DNA of 55,549 bases from Granulosicoccus sp. (GTDB lineage: Bacteria; Pseudomonadota; Gammaproteobacteria; Granulosicoccales; Granulosicoccaceae). The notes under the pieces are model-generated. The model saw only the letters and a program-made list of their open reading frames with translations, was not told where the DNA came from and ran no database searches. The DNA lies in contig JALZWO010000031.1 of NCBI GenBank assembly GCA_023300375.1, positions 1-55,549 on the forward strand. The letters run 5' to 3'. Shown one piece after another: positions 41,390-55,549 of this stretch; positions within the stretch are counted from its first letter, which is position 1; every line of letters starts with the position of its first letter. The position numbers and the translations under genes were made by a program.

Positions 41390-42505
41390 TCAAAGGTCTC
41401 CGACCGCTTCAATGCCGATTTTATGCGCCAAATACTGATGAAAATCATGCAATGTCCCCTCAAAATTATCCGCAGCTAATGGTCCAGTTACACTGTGTTC
41501 CGATTTCAAGCCCGCTTGTAAGCGTTGTAGAATTTCGTGATCTTCATTATTTATTTGCTTCCACTTTTCGACTCGTATGTTGATCTCGTCATCTGTGAGA
41601 TCCGACTCAAAAGTAGCCACACCCCATTTAACCGACACTTTATTCACACTAATGGGATGCAGTGCCAAATAGACCAATGTATCTGCAGATACTGAGGCAA
41701 TTAGCGACGGGAATACACAAAAAAGCTGTGATTGATTCACCTGCTCTTTAGTAAGCGACGGATGATGATTTTCTCTTGCTGGAGCTAACTTTCCATAGTT
41801 TGCTGTGTAGGCGGTAAAAGCCTCAGACCCAGTCACTTTTTTGCATAACAGGGTTGGTGTCAAATGATGAAGTGATTCGGGATGAACCACAGACAAATGA
41901 TACCCGTCCATAAAATTCTCTACTAACGACTTCCAGTTGCATTCCCATGTCTCCACGAAGCTTATCGCATGATGCATAGTTTGCATGTGGTAGTTAGCCA
42001 AATGTTGTTCAAGTGGAATGAGGGCTTGCATGTCTTGATTTTCAGGCCATACTGCATTTGCGTCAAGACTGACAAATATAAACCCTTGCCAGCATCTAGT
42101 TTTTAATCGGGGCAGCTGGCAGTCCTTATCAAGATGCTCTTTAGGCACCAGAGGGGCGTTGCGCAATTTACCATCTAGATCATAAGTCCATGCATGGTAT
42201 GGACAACGAAAACGTTGGGTATTTCCAGAACCTGACGCGACTGGCATGCCTCTATGCCGACAAACATTGGACAATACCGAGATGTCTTTTTCTGTCTCGC
42301 GGACTACTAGCAATGGTTCTGACATTAAATCAATAGTGAAAAAATCACCCAATTCTGGAATTTCGTCTGTACGACCAAGGCAATGCCATTCATGTAAGAA
42401 CAACTTTTTCTTTTCTAGCTTCAAGAACTTACCGCTGGTATAGCAAGCCGGCGGTAAACCATGACCCTGCGGGCGATTAGATATTTTTTGTAAAAGTGAT
42501 TTCAA
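41390..42505 (-). CDS. Rieske non-heme iron oxygenase alpha subunit (Asp-bridged)
   Basis: 371 residues from a TTG start (AAGG upstream; the next Met is about 60 residues in, past the Rieske region start). The Rieske cluster ligands are CRH and CPYH (N-terminal third). The mononuclear iron site is ENFMDGYHLSVVH, with Asp at the bridging position three residues before the first His. Such subunits hydroxylate rings or demethylate amines and betaines. No reductase or ferredoxin gene lies nearby, so electrons must come from elsewhere. It lies 85 bases downstream of the second alpha-subunit gene on the same strand, so both are probably co-transcribed. Confidence 0.9.
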   Translation of the reverse strand: MKSLLQKISNRPQGHGLPPACYTSGKFLKLEKKKLFLHEWHCLGRTDEIPELGDFFTIDLMSEPLLVVRETEKDISVLSNVCRHRGMPVASGSGNTQRFRCPYHAWTYDLDGKLRNAPLVPKEHLDKDCQLPRLKTRCWQGFIFVSLDANAVWPENQDMQALIPLEQHLANYHMQTMHHAISFVETWECNWKSLVENFMDGYHLSVVHPESLHHLTPTLLCKKVTGSEAFTAYTANYGKLAPARENHHPSLTKEQVNQSQLFCVFPSLIASVSADTLVYLALHPISVNKVSVKWGVATFESDLTDDEINIRVEKWKQINNEDHEILQRLQAGLKSEHSVTGPLAADNFEGTLHDFHQYLAHKIGIEAVGDL

Positions 42506-42590
42506 TGACGTTGTACCTTGGCATTGTGCTAAAGCTACGACAAGTTATCTACTGCTGATGAAATATCTTTGTATTCGCAGATTAAACATT

Positions 42591-43742
42591 CTAGCGCTCA
42601 GCCGGAATGCGACTTGACAAGTATTGCGCGAACTCGTAATTGGGCCTTTCAAGGTGAGACAAAGGCCCAGGCTTGGCAAATTCCGAACATAAACCTTTGT
42701 ACACTTTTTCGGTGCATCCGCGATCCTCAATATTCACCTCATCGAGCAATTTTTTAAGTGTAGTGAAATGCTCTTTAGCATCAGGATCGCTCGCATATTC
42801 CGAGGACATTCCACCACCAAACATGATGCGTACTTTGCCAACACCTTCCGGGTGTAATGACAGATACCAGAAATAGCCCGGAGTGAGAGTTATCATCAAG
42901 CTCGGGTATATAGCTAATAGATAGGTTGTTCGACGCCGCTCCCCTTCCATGCGCGTATTGTCTGGATGCGCCATTGCTATTTTTAACGACTCATCTTTTA
43001 AGATGGTGTGATAGTTGAACGTTGGTTTGCCCGGAGGACACACCATTTCATCGAGCCGAGACAACCCGCCAATAGTGCCTCGGTGGCAGACCGGCAAGTG
43101 ATAGCTTTCCATAAAATTTTCGGCAAGCACTTTCCAGTTTGTGTCCCACACGTGCGTTTCGAAGAACGACTCCTCATAATGGCTTACCCCATAGTCCTCA
43201 ATCATGGTTTCCACATCCGCTAACTGCTCAGCTGCAGGGGTTGCATCAGAATTGAGCGAGAGCATGATCCAGCCGAGCCATTCTTCACAGCGAACCTGGG
43301 GCAGTTGCATTTCTTTTTTACAGAATGATTGGTTCTCTGTCATGGCCGGTGCACCGCGCAGTTGACCGTTGAGCTCGTATGTCCATGCATGATAAGGACA
43401 AACGATTGCCCGCGTGTTGCCACTTCCCTCAAGCAACGTGGACATACGATGTAGGCAAACGTTCGACTGAGCTTGGAGCTTTCCATCATTATTGCGAACC
43501 ACCATAATGGGCTGACCCGCCAACTCAAGAGTTAGATAGTCCCCAGGTTTTACTAGCGAACTCGCTCTGCCAGCACAAAACCAGTCGTGACCAAACACGT
43601 GTTCAAGCTCATCGGCGAGAAACGCATCCGAGGTATAAACGCTGGGTGGCATGGCATGCGCTTTCTCAAACGGCACCGCCGCATTAGCTGCAAGTTCGAC
43701 TGCAGCGGTATGCCCCACTTGACCTGTGGTTTTATCACTCAT
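42591..43742 (-). CDS. Rieske non-heme iron oxygenase alpha subunit (Glu-bridged)
   Basis: 383 residues from an ATG. Rieske ligands are CLH and CPYH; the catalytic site is ENFMESYHLPVCH, with Glu at the position that relays electrons between the Rieske cluster and the iron. Glu there is reported for carnitine monooxygenase CntA and similar quaternary-amine oxygenases, suggesting an N-methylated substrate. It is the first gene of the two-gene leftward unit and diverges from the RidA/DUF1028/LysR/M20 operon with 359 bp between the starts. Confidence 0.9.
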   Translation of the reverse strand: MSDKTTGQVGHTAAVELAANAAVPFEKAHAMPPSVYTSDAFLADELEHVFGHDWFCAGRASSLVKPGDYLTLELAGQPIMVVRNNDGKLQAQSNVCLHRMSTLLEGSGNTRAIVCPYHAWTYELNGQLRGAPAMTENQSFCKKEMQLPQVRCEEWLGWIMLSLNSDATPAAEQLADVETMIEDYGVSHYEESFFETHVWDTNWKVLAENFMESYHLPVCHRGTIGGLSRLDEMVCPPGKPTFNYHTILKDESLKIAMAHPDNTRMEGERRRTTYLLAIYPSLMITLTPGYFWYLSLHPEGVGKVRIMFGGGMSSEYASDPDAKEHFTTLKKLLDEVNIEDRGCTEKVYKGLCSEFAKPGPLSHLERPNYEFAQYLSSRIPAER

Positions 43743-49795: not shown

Positions 49796-49848
49796 TAGTA
49801 GAAGTACATGCACTTCTACTAAGCGTTTTTGCCGTTCTACAAAAACGC
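49796..49848 (-). terminator. Tandem hairpins overlapping the DUF1501 stop codon
   Basis: Two perfect stems lie back to back: 49796-49805 with 49812-49821 (10 bp, 6-base loop), and 49823-49831 with 49840-49848 (9 bp, 8-base loop). The second includes the stop codon and last codons of the DUF1501 gene. Stem bases include T5/A5 runs, so U residues are inside the stem. This marks the end of the DUF1800/DUF1501 unit. Confidence 0.55.
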
Positions 49849-51249
49849 CACCTGGTTTTGCCAGTCGCTACCAAAATTATTCAAGTCTGGAAATACTTCG
49901 GCTAGGTCGCTATCAGACAAGCCCATCCATCTTGCAAGGGTGGCTCCATACTGGTTAATAGACAGATTGGGGATAACACGTCCCTTATCACCGGCATCGT
50001 CTTCTGCCCCAACCTCGAAACTTGGCAGCGTGCCATAGAGTTGACCACCCTTCACTGCGCCGCCCATAGTCATATAATGACCGCCCCAGCCATGATCTGA
50101 ACCGTCGCCGTTAATGGTTAGGGTACGGCCGAAATCTGACGCGGTAAATGTCGTCACTGATTCCCCTAAACCAATCTCCTCAAGAGTTCTCTGGAAATCA
50201 AACAGGCTACGGTTCAAATCAGTCATCAACGCATCTAGCCTTGGAGTTTGGTTATCGTGTGTATCCCATCCGCCTACTCCAACAAAAAAGATCTGCCGCT
50301 TCATGCCCAAGCTTTCATTGCCTGAGATCAGACGCGCTACCATGCGCAGCTGAGCCGCTAGTCCACTGCCCTCGTCATAGCTGGTATCGAACGACGAATG
50401 CGCACTCAGAGTTGCTGCCAGTTGGCCCGCACCCTCTTTCGCCCGTGAAAACGATTGCGCTGCCTGCTGCTTAAGCGGGTGATTACTCGACAACCGTAAC
50501 ATGGCGTCCAGGGACGATTCGCGGGCTGTATTGACTGACCCGCTGAGATTGTCAAGGTATGCCAGTGGGCTCAAACCTGTAATGGGGTTCAAACCAATGG
50601 GCTGTACTTGCTCGCCGGGAAGCCAAAAGTTACTTCCTGCTACAGAGAAGCTTGGAGGAAGAACAGCACCGGGGTTCGCTTGCTGGAGTAGATCAGCCAT
50701 ACGCCCTCCCCAACCTGTGCCAACGATAGAAGCAGGCGAACTACTGAGCCCTTTCAACCATTGCTCCTGCTGATGATTATGAGCGAACAGGTCTGCAGGA
50801 ACCTGTGAGCTATTGTTCAAAAAATTACTCTTGGTGATGGGCGCTATCAGGTTACCCACATTACCCACTACCGCGAGTTTGCCTTCTGTGTAGAGATTAT
50901 GTAAATCAGCCAACTTAGGATTAAAGGCTATACCAGTATCAGTTGCCCCTGTTAACAGAGAACTTTGAGGAAATGCAAGCCCGCCTCTACTAGCAGAATA
51001 ACGATCATAGGCTCCTTGCTCTGTAGGTAGGAACATAGAAAAAGAATCGCTACCACCGTACAAAAATACGCACACCAGTGCCTTGTAATCACCGAGTTGC
51101 GAAAAATCGGTACTGGCAGCCAACGCTGAGCCAATAAGACTCAATTTGCCATTCATAGCACCCGCGCCAGAACCCAGCAATGACACTGCAGCACACTGCT
51201 TCAGGAAATCACGACGTTGACGTTGTTTCTTGCCGTTGAAGATAGCCAT
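49837..51249 (-). CDS. DUF1501 family Tat-exported protein
   Basis: A 470-residue protein with a twin-arginine signal (QRQRRDFLKQC near the N-terminus). The DUF1501 core is clear: VFLYGGSDSFSMFLP, VGGWDTHDNQ, and FTASDFGRTLTINGDGSDHGWGGHY. The fold is related to alkaline-phosphatase/sulfatase-like enzymes, with His and Asp residues that could bind metal. Its start overlaps the DUF1800 stop by one base, and the two families are commonly adjacent. They are thought to work together at the cell surface; function unknown. Confidence 0.92.
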   Translation of the reverse strand: MAIFNGKKQRQRRDFLKQCAAVSLLGSGAGAMNGKLSLIGSALAASTDFSQLGDYKALVCVFLYGGSDSFSMFLPTEQGAYDRYSASRGGLAFPQSSLLTGATDTGIAFNPKLADLHNLYTEGKLAVVGNVGNLIAPITKSNFLNNSSQVPADLFAHNHQQEQWLKGLSSSPASIVGTGWGGRMADLLQQANPGAVLPPSFSVAGSNFWLPGEQVQPIGLNPITGLSPLAYLDNLSGSVNTARESSLDAMLRLSSNHPLKQQAAQSFSRAKEGAGQLAATLSAHSSFDTSYDEGSGLAAQLRMVARLISGNESLGMKRQIFFVGVGGWDTHDNQTPRLDALMTDLNRSLFDFQRTLEEIGLGESVTTFTASDFGRTLTINGDGSDHGWGGHYMTMGGAVKGGQLYGTLPSFEVGAEDDAGDKGRVIPNLSINQYGATLARWMGLSDSDLAEVFPDLNNFGSDWQNQVAFL

Positions 51250-54200
51250 TACATTTGCACCAGGTAGTCAGGAGAAGCCATGATGAGCGTGATCGCATCT
51301 CGAACACGCAGACTGCGGCCTTCATCAGTGTCGGGTAGGCCATTGATATGATCAAAGAGAATTGCCCTGAAACCTGCCGACAGGCTGCCACTCATCAAAA
51401 CGGTATCTAGGTGATTCAACAGCTCATCAGGATCACTGGCCAACTGACGTTCGTAAGTGAAATCAAGAAACGCATTGCGTTGACCTAAACTGTCAGGATT
51501 ACCAAGGTAGGCTTCCTGAATCTGCCGTCCTATACGGTTGGACGTTGCCAGCTCATTACTCTCGGTAAACAACTCAAATTCTGGAGCAACCAGATTATCG
51601 TCAGCGACAGGCCCTGAGGGTGAGTAGCTCGGCTGAAAGAAATTGAAGACCGAAGGCGATTTCAATACCGCCTGCCCTGTTGTCACATCCAGATTTTCCA
51701 AGGCAGGCGAACTGGTTGTAAATTCCCCACGATCACTATTACTACCGGGTTGGATATTAAAGGCACGCCACAAATTACTTAGCCGCAACACCGGCTCGCG
51801 TAACTTGCCATACGTATTAGAGGTGGGCACTGATCGAGCTTCGTCATCGAGCAACAGAGCACGAATCACGGCTTGTAAATTACCTCGTTCCCCATTGCCA
51901 TCGTCATTGAAGACAGTGGCGATGCGCTGAACGTAAGCAGGTGTGGGGTTACTAGTAATGAGCCTTGTAATCAGCTGCTTCACAATAAATGGCCCAACAT
52001 TGGAGTGGTTAAAAATATTATCCAATGCCATCTCAAGATCAGCACGTGCTCCCTGATTAGCAGGAGTAGTCAGACCATTAAGTAATGTCTTTGGCTCTGT
52101 GTCATGAAAAGACTGGAACGGCAGCATCGGGCTGATGACATCCGCGCCGGTAAAAGGTCGCCGATCCCAAGTACCTGCATCTGCATAGTTCCATCCAGTG
52201 AAAGATCGAGCAAAGGCCTCTATATTGTCTTGAGTAAAAACCGGGTCACCTGCTGTAGTGCCATCGGCATTCAGCTGATGTAGCCCAATTGAAAAGAGTT
52301 GCAACACCTCACGAGCGTAATTTTCATCTGCTCGTGTGGATAACTCTTCATCACTTTTGGCGTTTTGCAGCATGCTCAGGTATAGGCCCATGACAGGGCT
52401 CAGAGTTACCTGTTCAAGTAACTCACGATAATTGCCAAACGCATTGGCTCGTAACATATCGTAGTAATTCGTGATCCCGAACTGAGCATTCGACAAGGTA
52501 AAGCCTGTATCGGAGACCACAAATATCTGACTCAACGCAAAGGCGACTCGTTGCCGAAGTTGGTCGTCACCATGGACAACATCAGTCCACCACACTTCGT
52601 GTCGCGCAGCTCGGTTGCTGCCGTTGGAATTGGCTCGAACGTAATCTAGGTGAGCAGGCCCTTGAAGCGTGAACTGATTATCCAGCCAGCCTTCAAAACC
52701 CTGTGATTGCACATCAAGAATACTTGCCCGAGTGGGCCCAAATGTCGCTTGAGTGAGGAAGCGAGACGCAGCTATACCTGACGGTGTAGTTGCTGGGTCA
52801 AATACGGTAATGGACTTACTGGCTACACCACTCATTCCTGAATCGTCAGTAACCGTCAATTGAACCAAGTAGCTACCAGGCTCTGTGAATACATGCTCCA
52901 CAGTGCTAGCGCTCTGATTAAGCTGGTCGCTGGATCCATCGCCAAAGTTCCAGATGTACTCTGTTAATTCATTGTTAGCTCTCGCCACTGACTCCGATGA
53001 ATCAAACACAACACTTAATGGGGCCAGGCCTGCAACATCCGAACTAAAACCGAGAGTGGAAATAATGGCAAGTGGAGATTCACCATTGTCGGCTTCGACA
53101 ACCGCAAATAGCGTTTCGGACCAGTCTGACGCTCCTGTCTCGTAAACCGCTCGAACATGCCAAGTATTCAGACCACTAATAGGCAGTTCTGGCACTGTCG
53201 TGTATGTGCATATACCATCTGCACAGACCTGGGCAGGCACCAAATTATTGACAGCAGGTAATGCATCCCCGTCACTGTTCGTGAGGAAAAAATCATAGCT
53301 CACGGCCTGCTCGTCTGTAGCCCATTGAAAATCCACGGCTTGACCAACAGTAACCGATTGACCTGCACTTGGCGCTATCGCAACTGGAGCGTCTGGCAAG
53401 GTGACGAGCTCGGCAACCACTGAAAACGATTTATCTACCCAGCTAGTTTCTCCTAAACTATTCAGCGCCCTCACTCGACCGGTATAGGTTTCTGCTACGG
53501 GAAGCTGTGAGCTTGTGGTAAAGCTGCAGAAATAGGTGTCACATTGAGCGTGTATCAGCGAAACCGTTTCTATCGCACTCGCATTAGAAAAATCAGTCCC
53601 CTCAAACAACGCGAATTCATACTCAGTTGCATACTGCGATCGATTCCAAGTAAAAGTAACCGCCTCGCCTTCAGTCGCTTCAGACCCAGCCAGCGGCGCT
53701 ATTATTTCTATGGGCCCCGGTGCACTTGTTACTTCCGGGATAACTTCGAAGGTCGTTCGTGTTAGTGCTAACGAAAAACCCAACGAGTTCTCACCACGAA
53801 CACGCCACGCATGGTTATCTGCAACTGGCAGTTCAATGAGCACTGTGATTGAACAAAGTTGTGCATCGCATGCATGTTCAGCTTGAATGTCCTCTACAAA
53901 CCCAGTAGCAGTTCTGTTCGCACCATCGAAAAAATGAAATTCGTAGGAGGCCGAATCAGGTTCACGCTCCCAAGTGAACACAACAGAACTTCCTTGCGAC
54001 ACCTGTGCACCCGCTCTTGGGGATACGTTTACCGCCAATGAAGGTCTTTGGGTAGCCCTCTCGATCGTGCCAAACGCTGTTGATGTCCACGCAGACTGGC
54101 CAGCGGCATTAGTAGCACGCACTTGCCATTCGTAACTGTTCGCAATAGGTAGTGCTATTGCAATATCAACTTCACACTCTGCTGCAGAACATGTTCTAGC

Positions 54201-55549
54201 CGAGACACTTTCGCTAATAAGAACAGCGTCTGAATTTGTAGAGTCAAGCACGCGAAAATCATAAGTTGATGCCTTATCGCTTGGGAGCCAGCTAAACGTT
54301 GTTACGGTATCGATTTCCAATCGGGCATCTTGTTGTGGCGCTAGCGTTACCGGTATAGGTGGTGGATCGGTTACAAGCTCAACAACGTTGAAGAACGTCA
54401 GTGTCCAAGCTGAGACGCCTGCCGAATTTCGACCACGTACACGCCAGCGCTGATTTTCAAATACCGGTAAATTAACTTCTACATCGTAGCTACACAGTGT
54501 GCCATCACAAAGATCCGCTGGTAACAGACCAAGCTGCCATGGCTGCTCACCGAAGGTGTCCGAGTTCGTGTCGGCATTGAAAAGATAGAAATCATAAGTT
54601 TCTATGTTTAGATCTTGCTCCCATGTAAACGCAAAAACCGAGTTTTCAATGACATCTGTTCCAACAGGGCTAACCGGGGTAGGAACCGCCGGCTTTTCTC
54701 TCGGTACATCGGGGACATCAGGTACCACTGCCGACACCACGTTAAAGGTTGAACGTGACCATGACGATGAACCAGCAGCGTTGTTAACCAGAACTTCCCA
54801 GCCATGATCTTGCGCTGCACCCAAGGACACTTCAAAATTGTAAAAGCACAGTCCATCCTCACAAATGTCAGCGGCCAATAGAGTTTGTGAGACATACCTG
54901 TCGCTCTGCACATCGAAGAGACGAAAACCATAACTGCGGGCAGTAGGCTCTTGGCTCCACATGAACAACACCGAATCACCCTGAACAATATCAACACCCT
55001 CTGCAGGGGAGATGGTTTGTGGTGATGACGGTGAAGTTGGGGGCTCTGTTGGCTCTGTTGGCTCTGGTAAGTTGACGGCAAACGTTGAAGACACCCATTC
55101 TGAGCTACCCACCCCATTGGCCGCTTTTACCTGCCATATAAACGAACCTGAATCCGCAATATCGAGTAATTGAGCAGACGTAGAGCAAGTTGAGTCTGTG
55201 CATGCAGACGCCATAACCACTGAGCTAAACACTGCATTAGAGCCCGTATCGTTATTTTCATACAGTTCGAACTCGTACCGCTCAGCATCATCAGATGGAC
55301 TCCAGCTGAAATCGACGATGTCATCAGGTGAGAAAGTAGCTGTAGACAACGGGGCAAGCAGAGCAAAAGCTTGTGGTGGTAACTGTATGTCGCCCTCAAC
55401 TATCTGCACTTCAGCTAAAGATAGTGGATTTTTACCTGATAACTGAACTCGAACGAAGCGTGCGGCGTGGTTGATCGAAATGGTATTGATAGCGTCCGCA
55501 AAACCTGAAAAAAATTGATGTTGAACGCTAGAGTCACTTAGTGTCGATT
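51249..55549 (-). CDS. Giant multidomain DUF1800 protein, 5'-truncated by window edge
   Basis: The frame is open to the right edge (at least 1432 codons). A GTG at 55409 is not a convincing start, because the codons upstream of it encode the end of an F5/8 type C (discoidin) domain (ARFVRVQLSG, LSLAEVQI). Numbered from 55409, seven fibronectin-III-like modules of about 105-118 residues follow, each with one CX4C motif (70/75, 183/188, 301/306, 407/412, 514/519, 623/628, 729/734). Then come a PKD domain (NFGDGSS, about 780-875) and a DUF1800 domain (FLTQATFGPT to the C-terminus). No other cysteine is visible. It is probably a large surface or secreted protein binding carbohydrate or matrix. 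Confidence 0.88.
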   Translation of the reverse strand, partial: STLSDSSVQHQFFSGFADAINTISINHAARFVRVQLSGKNPLSLAEVQIVEGDIQLPPQAFALLAPLSTATFSPDDIVDFSWSPSDDAERYEFELYENNDTGSNAVFSSVVMASACTDSTCSTSAQLLDIADSGSFIWQVKAANGVGSSEWVSSTFAVNLPEPTEPTEPPTSPSSPQTISPAEGVDIVQGDSVLFMWSQEPTARSYGFRLFDVQSDRYVSQTLLAADICEDGLCFYNFEVSLGAAQDHGWEVLVNNAAGSSSWSRSTFNVVSAVVPDVPDVPREKPAVPTPVSPVGTDVIENSVFAFTWEQDLNIETYDFYLFNADTNSDTFGEQPWQLGLLPADLCDGTLCSYDVEVNLPVFENQRWRVRGRNSAGVSAWTLTFFNVVELVTDPPPIPVTLAPQQDARLEIDTVTTFSWLPSDKASTYDFRVLDSTNSDAVLISESVSARTCSAAECEVDIAIALPIANSYEWQVRATNAAGQSAWTSTAFGTIERATQRPSLAVNVSPRAGAQVSQGSSVVFTWEREPDSASYEFHFFDGANRTATGFVEDIQAEHACDAQLCSITVLIELPVADNHAWRVRGENSLGFSLALTRTTFEVIPEVTSAPGPIEIIAPLAGSEATEGEAVTFTWNRSQYATEYEFALFEGTDFSNASAIETVSLIHAQCDTYFCSFTTSSQLPVAETYTGRVRALNSLGETSWVDKSFSVVAELVTLPDAPVAIAPSAGQSVTVGQAVDFQWATDEQAVSYDFFLTNSDGDALPAVNNLVPAQVCADGICTYTTVPELPISGLNTWHVRAVYETGASDWSETLFAVVEADNGESPLAIISTLGFSSDVAGLAPLSVVFDSSESVARANNELTEYIWNFGDGSSDQLNQSASTVEHVFTEPGSYLVQLTVTDDSGMSGVASKSITVFDPATTPSGIAASRFLTQATFGPTRASILDVQSQGFEGWLDNQFTLQGPAHLDYVRANSNGSNRAARHEVWWTDVVHGDDQLRQRVAFALSQIFVVSDTGFTLSNAQFGITNYYDMLRANAFGNYRELLEQVTLSPVMGLYLSMLQNAKSDEELSTRADENYAREVLQLFSIGLHQLNADGTTAGDPVFTQDNIEAFARSFTGWNYADAGTWDRRPFTGADVISPMLPFQSFHDTEPKTLLNGLTTPANQGARADLEMALDNIFNHSNVGPFIVKQLITRLITSNPTPAYVQRIATVFNDDGNGERGNLQAVIRALLLDDEARSVPTSNTYGKLREPVLRLSNLWRAFNIQPGSNSDRGEFTTSSPALENLDVTTGQAVLKSPSVFNFFQPSYSPSGPVADDNLVAPEFELFTESNELATSNRIGRQIQEAYLGNPDSLGQRNAFLDFTYERQLASDPDELLNHLDTVLMSGSLSAGFRAILFDHINGLPDTDEGRSLRVRDAITLIMASPDYLVQM

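Follow-up and report, generated by a model that had tools for sequence, protein, structure and literature searches.

The 55,549-nucleotide stretch of DNA analyzed here (hereafter the window) is an entire contig (JALZWO010000031.1, designated C31) of the Granulosicoccus sp. assembly GCA_023300375.1, a genome of 4.58 Mb in 247 contigs, and its minus strand carries a DUF1800 protein gene (51249..55547) encoding seven modules that resemble fibronectin type III (FN3) domains and contain one pair of cysteines each. The explanation that we consider probable is that every module is an FN3-like domain with a single intra-domain disulfide, and that the seven together form an arm of two module classes within an exported DUF1800 protein. 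Since the contig ends within the reading frame, the gene lacks its 5' end and the visible protein (1432 amino acids) its N-terminus. Each module has one CX4C motif, and the seven motifs account for all 14 of the visible cysteines (residues 116/121, 229/234, 347/352, 453/458, 560/565, 669/674, and 775/780); they extend over window positions 53208-55202 and follow one another at spacings of 113, 118, 106, 107, 109, and 106 residues. In 20,000 shuffles of the protein the number of CX4C motifs averaged 0.13 and never exceeded 3, compared with the seven observed, and the modules are 23-41% identical to one another. The residue count and these identities confirm an earlier note on this DNA, made from the sequence alone, which had described regularly spaced motifs holding all visible cysteines in modules that are otherwise strongly diverged. 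Its further statement that there are no other cysteines is correct for the visible part but does not extend to the whole protein, since part of the gene is missing and, in L069 (loci are given L numbers throughout), a probable orthologue, the N-terminal region has four further cysteines within its two F5/8-type-C (F5/8C) domains. Two more are found early in the stop-to-stop frame of L069 and may fall outside the real protein.

Conservation of the cysteine pair extends to all full-length modules identified in the genus. Searching 39 genomes with module 5 produced matches in 18, all of them among the 24 genomes of the same genus (own genome included) and none among the 15 from other genera; 20 of the 21 named loci with modules lie in Granulosicoccus or Granulosicoccaceae assemblies. 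A set of 29 frames, drawn from 26 fetched stretches, two loci of the window's own genome, and the window itself, contained 95 module matches, one of which (34 amino acids) ends at a contig end before the cysteine region. The other 94 are full modules and every one of them has the pair (89 with an X4 loop, 3 with X5, and 2 with X10), with a third cysteine present in a single module (in L071). Because a profile containing cysteines favors matches containing cysteines, the search of the same frames was redone with the cysteines masked in both profile and targets; this again recovered 94 full modules, all with the pair, and the sole full-length match without it was a 5.2-bit non-module. In an overlapping set (21 loci plus the window), exactly two cysteines were found in 71/71 modules (63 X4, 4 X5, 3 X10, and 1 X3). 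The pair has thus been kept among the genus modules while the rest of each module diverged, as had been proposed, and homologues with non-conserved cysteines, named beforehand as the observation that would count against this, were looked for and none was seen among the genus modules.

The structure predicted for module 5 from 63 aligned rows (the module itself and 62 relatives) has a predicted local distance difference test score (pLDDT) of 96.7 and a predicted template modeling score (pTM) of 0.85, and consists of seven strands (residues 6-9, 13-19, 26-33, 38-47, 56-62, 68-79, and 90-95) and a short helix (48-51). Only four columns are invariant in the 63 rows (P2, W18, C52, and C57); in the model, Cys52 is marked as bridge or strand just before strand 56-62, and Cys57 lies inside that strand. 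Comparison of the model with solved structures using VIA-align returned 27 chains with Z scores of at least 8, including FN3 domains of CbhA, fibronectin, and integrin beta4 at 8.3-9.3 (e.g., the CbhA module 3pe9, Z 9.3 and root-mean-square deviation 1.9 over 78 residues; fibronectin FnIII-11 in 5dft, Z 8.5 and deviation 2.5 over 84). On the basis of this model we are confident in assigning the module to the FN3/Ig-like seven-strand beta-sandwiches, and the description of the repeats as fibronectin-like is supported by both the model and the FN3 domains among its structural matches. Since other Ig-like folds also score Z 8-10, the FN3 label leans in addition on a sequence pattern that we take to be FN3-like, namely a conserved early Trp and a late W-x-V-x-A followed by N..G.S.W. 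In Foldseek searches of the same model the top ranks went to antibody and T-cell receptor chains, and no expect value (E) fell under 0.001; in a viral library the single match under 0.001 was a probable tail fiber protein. As specific relatives these were rejected, and they were taken only as instances of the common sandwich.

The likeliest role of the cysteine pair is a predicted disulfide within the module, a reading drawn from the joint conservation of the two cysteines, their position before one strand, the freedom of the loop length, the probable export of the protein, and the presence of Dsb genes. The host genome has three genes above the DSBA-family cut-off and one above the DsbB cut-off, and signal-peptide-like and lipobox-like N-termini can be read in the sequences of module-bearing relatives, by which the window protein, described as exported in the earlier note, is probably so. 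That note had allowed for either a disulfide or a metal or heme-like site, and there are proteins in which CXnC motifs serve to bind metals and heme. A c-type heme site (CXnCH) was rejected because a His follows the second cysteine in 0/94 modules, and a metal site was rejected because the 63 rows offer no further invariant ligand residue, only P2 and W18 being invariant besides the pair. Considering also that the loop ranges from 3 to 10 residues and that the protein is probably exported and its genome has DsbA-family and DsbB genes, it is very improbable that the pair serves as a metal or heme site instead of a disulfide, so that only the disulfide part of the original alternative is retained. 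Even less credible are disulfides that connect neighboring modules or chains and thereby lock the array or form multimers; the sequence contains nothing that excludes such bonds, but single-module lipoproteins (L063, L058, L059, L064, L068, and L015) keep the same pair with no neighboring module, and in the model both cysteines are next to the end of one strand, at a separation of five residues.

Within the preferred explanation, an intra-domain disulfide in each module would staple the short crossover that precedes the fifth strand (by our own assignment presumably C' to E in the FN3 nomenclature). With the DsbA/DsbB system assisting, this staple would be formed once the protein is exported, and it would stabilize a small domain outside the cytoplasm. 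The seven beads of two classes would then constitute an arm between the sugar-binding-like F5/8C part at the N-terminus and the PKD and DUF1800 domains at the C-terminus, acting as a spacer or possibly as an arm that contacts carbohydrate.

The two classes were recognized in a tree of 66 modules, which separates 23 from 43 rows with support of 98/95, although it is based on few columns and many of its forks are open. Along the arrays, the classes are ordered BAABABA in the window, BABABA in L007 and L049, BABABAA in L060 and L067, ABABAA in L050 and L056, AABABA in L048 (partial), ABABA in L052, and AAAA in L053. In these ten arrays (L053 consists of class A modules only), two class B modules are never neighbors, and when five arrays were shuffled the absence of B-B neighbors arose in 0.7% of trials, a figure from a post hoc test on related arrays. 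Judging from these orders, the arrays seem to tend toward alternation of the two classes. Modules at equivalent positions pair across relatives, as modules 2-7 of the window do with modules 1-6 of L048 (73-91% identity), so the array predates the split between the two. Class A modules have His71 in 28/37 and His30 in 13/37 cases, and class B modules have Tyr71 in 13/23.

The array could accordingly be pictured as a series of ligand-binding class A beads (e.g., for algal polysaccharide) held apart by inert class B spacers. The separation of the two classes in the tree and the lack of B-B neighbors are in keeping with this picture, as are the GH16 and F5/8C domains that the modules accompany and the kelp-surface habitat of Granulosicoccus given in an excerpt of PMC9238374. 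Counting against it, the alternation test was made after the pattern had been seen and on arrays that share ancestry, A-A neighbors occur, and binding is putative only, with no carbohydrate-binding site identified. Fn3 modules on glycosidases, moreover, are often plain linkers. Taken together, we regard a division into binding and spacer modules as rather unlikely.

The range of proteins in which the modules are found bears on what such an arm might do. A search of the window's own genome with module 5 identified only the window, L007, and L015, plus one weak match at E 0.2; L007 is a second DUF1800 protein (1486 amino acids) with six modules, and L015 (1495-1917, minus strand) is small, lipoprotein-like, and has one. 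In this genome's four remaining DUF1800 proteins (frames of 562-618 amino acids), the cysteines number 3, 3, 1, and 1. Eight loci (L015, L092, L093, L096, L097, L099, L100, and L104) have a small lipoprotein-like protein that contains one or two modules and is situated amid shared neighbors, while L071 combines two GH16 stretches with five modules and L072 has FG-GAP and TSP3 repeats with three. This spread over a GH16 protein, an FG-GAP protein, and small lipoproteins gives the modules the appearance of generic exported beads, and because F5/8C domains and GH16 accompany them, it is plausible that the array is a stabilized arm in contact with a surface or polysaccharide. An excerpt of PMC5122149 describes DUF1800/DUF1501 pairs that adjoin bacterial chitin synthases, with the functional link merely proposed. 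Those pairs resemble the window in having the same two domains in neighboring genes and a DUF1501 protein with a Tat-like signal, and differ from it in that cysteine modules do not appear in the excerpted description. The stapled modules say nothing yet on what DUF1800/DUF1501 pairs do.

Beyond the genus, a sample of the class gave matches in 6/369 genomes (4/271 genera, own included) at E 1e-5, or in 7/369 genomes (5/271 genera) when a mixed profile was used at E 1e-6. A phylum-wide sample gave matches in 13/398 genomes (5/213 genera, own included) at E 1e-4, those outside the genus being weak (at most 34.5 bits). At 18 loci outside the genus, taken from the E 1e-5 search of the class and from the phylum sample, 101/103 matches of at least 60 amino acids have two cysteines spaced 4-8 residues apart, with loops distributed as X6 (80), X5 (11), X4 (9), and X8 (1); the two without the pair are in L079 (no cysteine) and L117 (one cysteine). 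Seven further loci, taken from the mixed-profile search, held modules of both kinds (the pair is present in L128, L129, L135, and L138), so that Fn3-like modules with and without the staple both occur in the class. Stapled modules are also part of a DUF1800 protein in a genome that belongs to another family (L075, G317). Elsewhere in the phylum there are long frames of tandem Fn3-like modules, mostly CX6C (L106-L116). On a contig labeled as an Acidimicrobiales metagenome-assembled genome (JAHDFH010000025.1), L095 (4651-9072) is a DUF1800 protein with cysteines at the same positions as in the Granulosicoccaceae L094, and this contig may be mis-binned. A viral origin was considered and rejected: among viral contigs, 17 stretches showed the pattern and none was confirmed; PHROGs gave no match for module 5 or L109, and plasmid records gave none for two queries.

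Several of the results weigh against the explanation favored here. Within the genus, 6/24 genomes have no match to module 5. Outside it, the searches used profiles built from cysteine-bearing modules, which prefer stapled ones, and the remaining three of the seven further loci (L130, L136, and L137) show only Fn3-like matches without the pair, the membership of which is unclear. Regarding the fold, the FN3 domains are joined within 1 Z by an engineered protein at Z 10.0, an S-layer protein at Z 9.4, and sulfite oxidases at Z 9.3 or below, and a search of solved structures by sequence produced only weak matches (best E 0.011, 0.052, and 0.0041) confined to the domain tail, the best of which are FN3 tails such as that of titin. 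The DUF1800 domain, modeled from 12 rows, reached a pLDDT of only 42.1. Finally, the role of the array is read from domain company and from nothing else.

Curated family collections cover the modules incompletely. The whole window protein exceeds the Pfam cut-offs of Kre9_KNH (PF10342; 43.8 versus 24.6) and Big_10 (PF17964; 25.8 versus 22.9), but modules 2, 5, and 7 scanned singly pass no Pfam cut-off (for Kre9_KNH two of them score 22.9 and 13.3 and one has no match) and do not match Big_10. Pfam fn3, which we take to be PF00041, is absent from the 14 families listed for the whole window protein at E up to 10 and has no match from the three single modules at E up to 1; NCBIfam has no match to the window protein over its cut-off. 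At E up to 0.01, the lipoprotein L063 is without a match in Pfam, as is L106 (an 844-amino acid CX6C frame with eight modules) in both Pfam and NCBIfam, and the modules of L106, L109, and L114 have no Pfam match over the cut-off. The modules share the seven-strand sandwich, the early Trp, and the late W-x-V-x-A / N..G.S.W pattern with the FN3 fold, and differ from it in missing Pfam fn3 and in having the invariant cysteine pair before the fifth strand, which to our knowledge is not a defining FN3 feature. For Kre9_KNH, L075 is likewise over the cut-off (31.7 bits), whereas the paralogue L007 is below it (19.8 bits). For Ig_Rha78A_N (PF25788), the L071 modules score 85.2 bits against a cut-off of 27.4, whereas the window protein stays below it at 15.2 bits. 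The remark in the earlier note that no description of this module was known is therefore accurate for the three single modules, which lie under the Pfam cut-offs, and too broad for the whole protein, which passes Kre9_KNH and Big_10, and for the modules of L071, which pass Ig_Rha78A_N. Titles and abstract openings in the open-licence literature on fibronectin type III name no such module, which does not establish its absence from print.

The modules belong to a very common extracellular fold, of which they are a probably disulfide-bearing and poorly curated variant rather than a new kind of system. A bolder generalization, which we put forward only tentatively, is that they represent a poorly registered family of stapled Fn3-like modules that is widespread in the phylum, in which little is fixed beyond the cysteine pair and a few core residues, the loop is lineage-specific (mostly X4 in the genus and mostly X6 elsewhere), and the arrays of DUF1800 proteins have a period of two with a ligand-binding site in one class. 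Automatic annotation can leave the module blank, as in L106 with its eight modules, and with a model built for it, surface proteins of the genus and of further members of the phylum would be annotated. As a 95-residue Fn3-like domain with a natural single-loop staple of varying length, the module would also offer a convenient test case for the stabilization of Ig-like folds by local disulfides.

The visible domain order of the window protein is an F5/8C-like tail, the seven modules, a PKD domain, and the DUF1800 domain, all on the minus strand. The F5/8C-like (galactose-binding-like) tail (residues 1-51; 55395..55547) was assigned by alignment to L069: window residues 1-160 are 79% identical to L069 residues 276-435, and residues 1-51 are 49% identical to L069 residues 135-185, both aligned stretches being ends of L069 F5/8C domains. 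Scanned alone, residues 1-65 have no Pfam match. Module 1 (class B) occupies 55071..55355 with its CX4C motif at 55185-55202, and is followed by module 2 (class A; 54732..55010, motif 54846-54863), module 3 (class A; 54378..54671, motif 54492-54509), module 4 (class B; 54060..54341, motif 54174-54191), module 5 (class A; 53736..54023, motif 53853-53870), for which the structure was predicted, module 6 (class B; 53412..53699, motif 53526-53543), and module 7 (class A; 53094..53375, motif 53208-53225). The PKD domain (PF18911; 52806..53018) was identified with Pfam at E 1.8e-14, and the DUF1800 domain (PF08811; 51261..52763), which has no cysteine, scores 284.1 bits against a cut-off of 26.1. 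In L069 (1-1713, minus strand), which has two F5/8C domains, module 1 is followed by a very long TEP/TDP-repeat linker that reaches the contig end and is present in the window protein only in a short version.

Downstream of the DUF1800 gene is a DUF1501 gene (PF07394 by Pfam match; 49837..51249, minus strand), the ATG of which shares one base with the DUF1800 stop codon (TAATG), and the two genes may be translationally coupled through this overlap. Near the N-terminus of the DUF1501 protein the sequence reads RRDFLK, which we take to be a twin-arginine (Tat)-like signal. Elsewhere in the window, two adjoining frames on the minus strand (41390-43742) presumably resemble Rieske-type oxygenases, a label that we assigned from a sequence motif.

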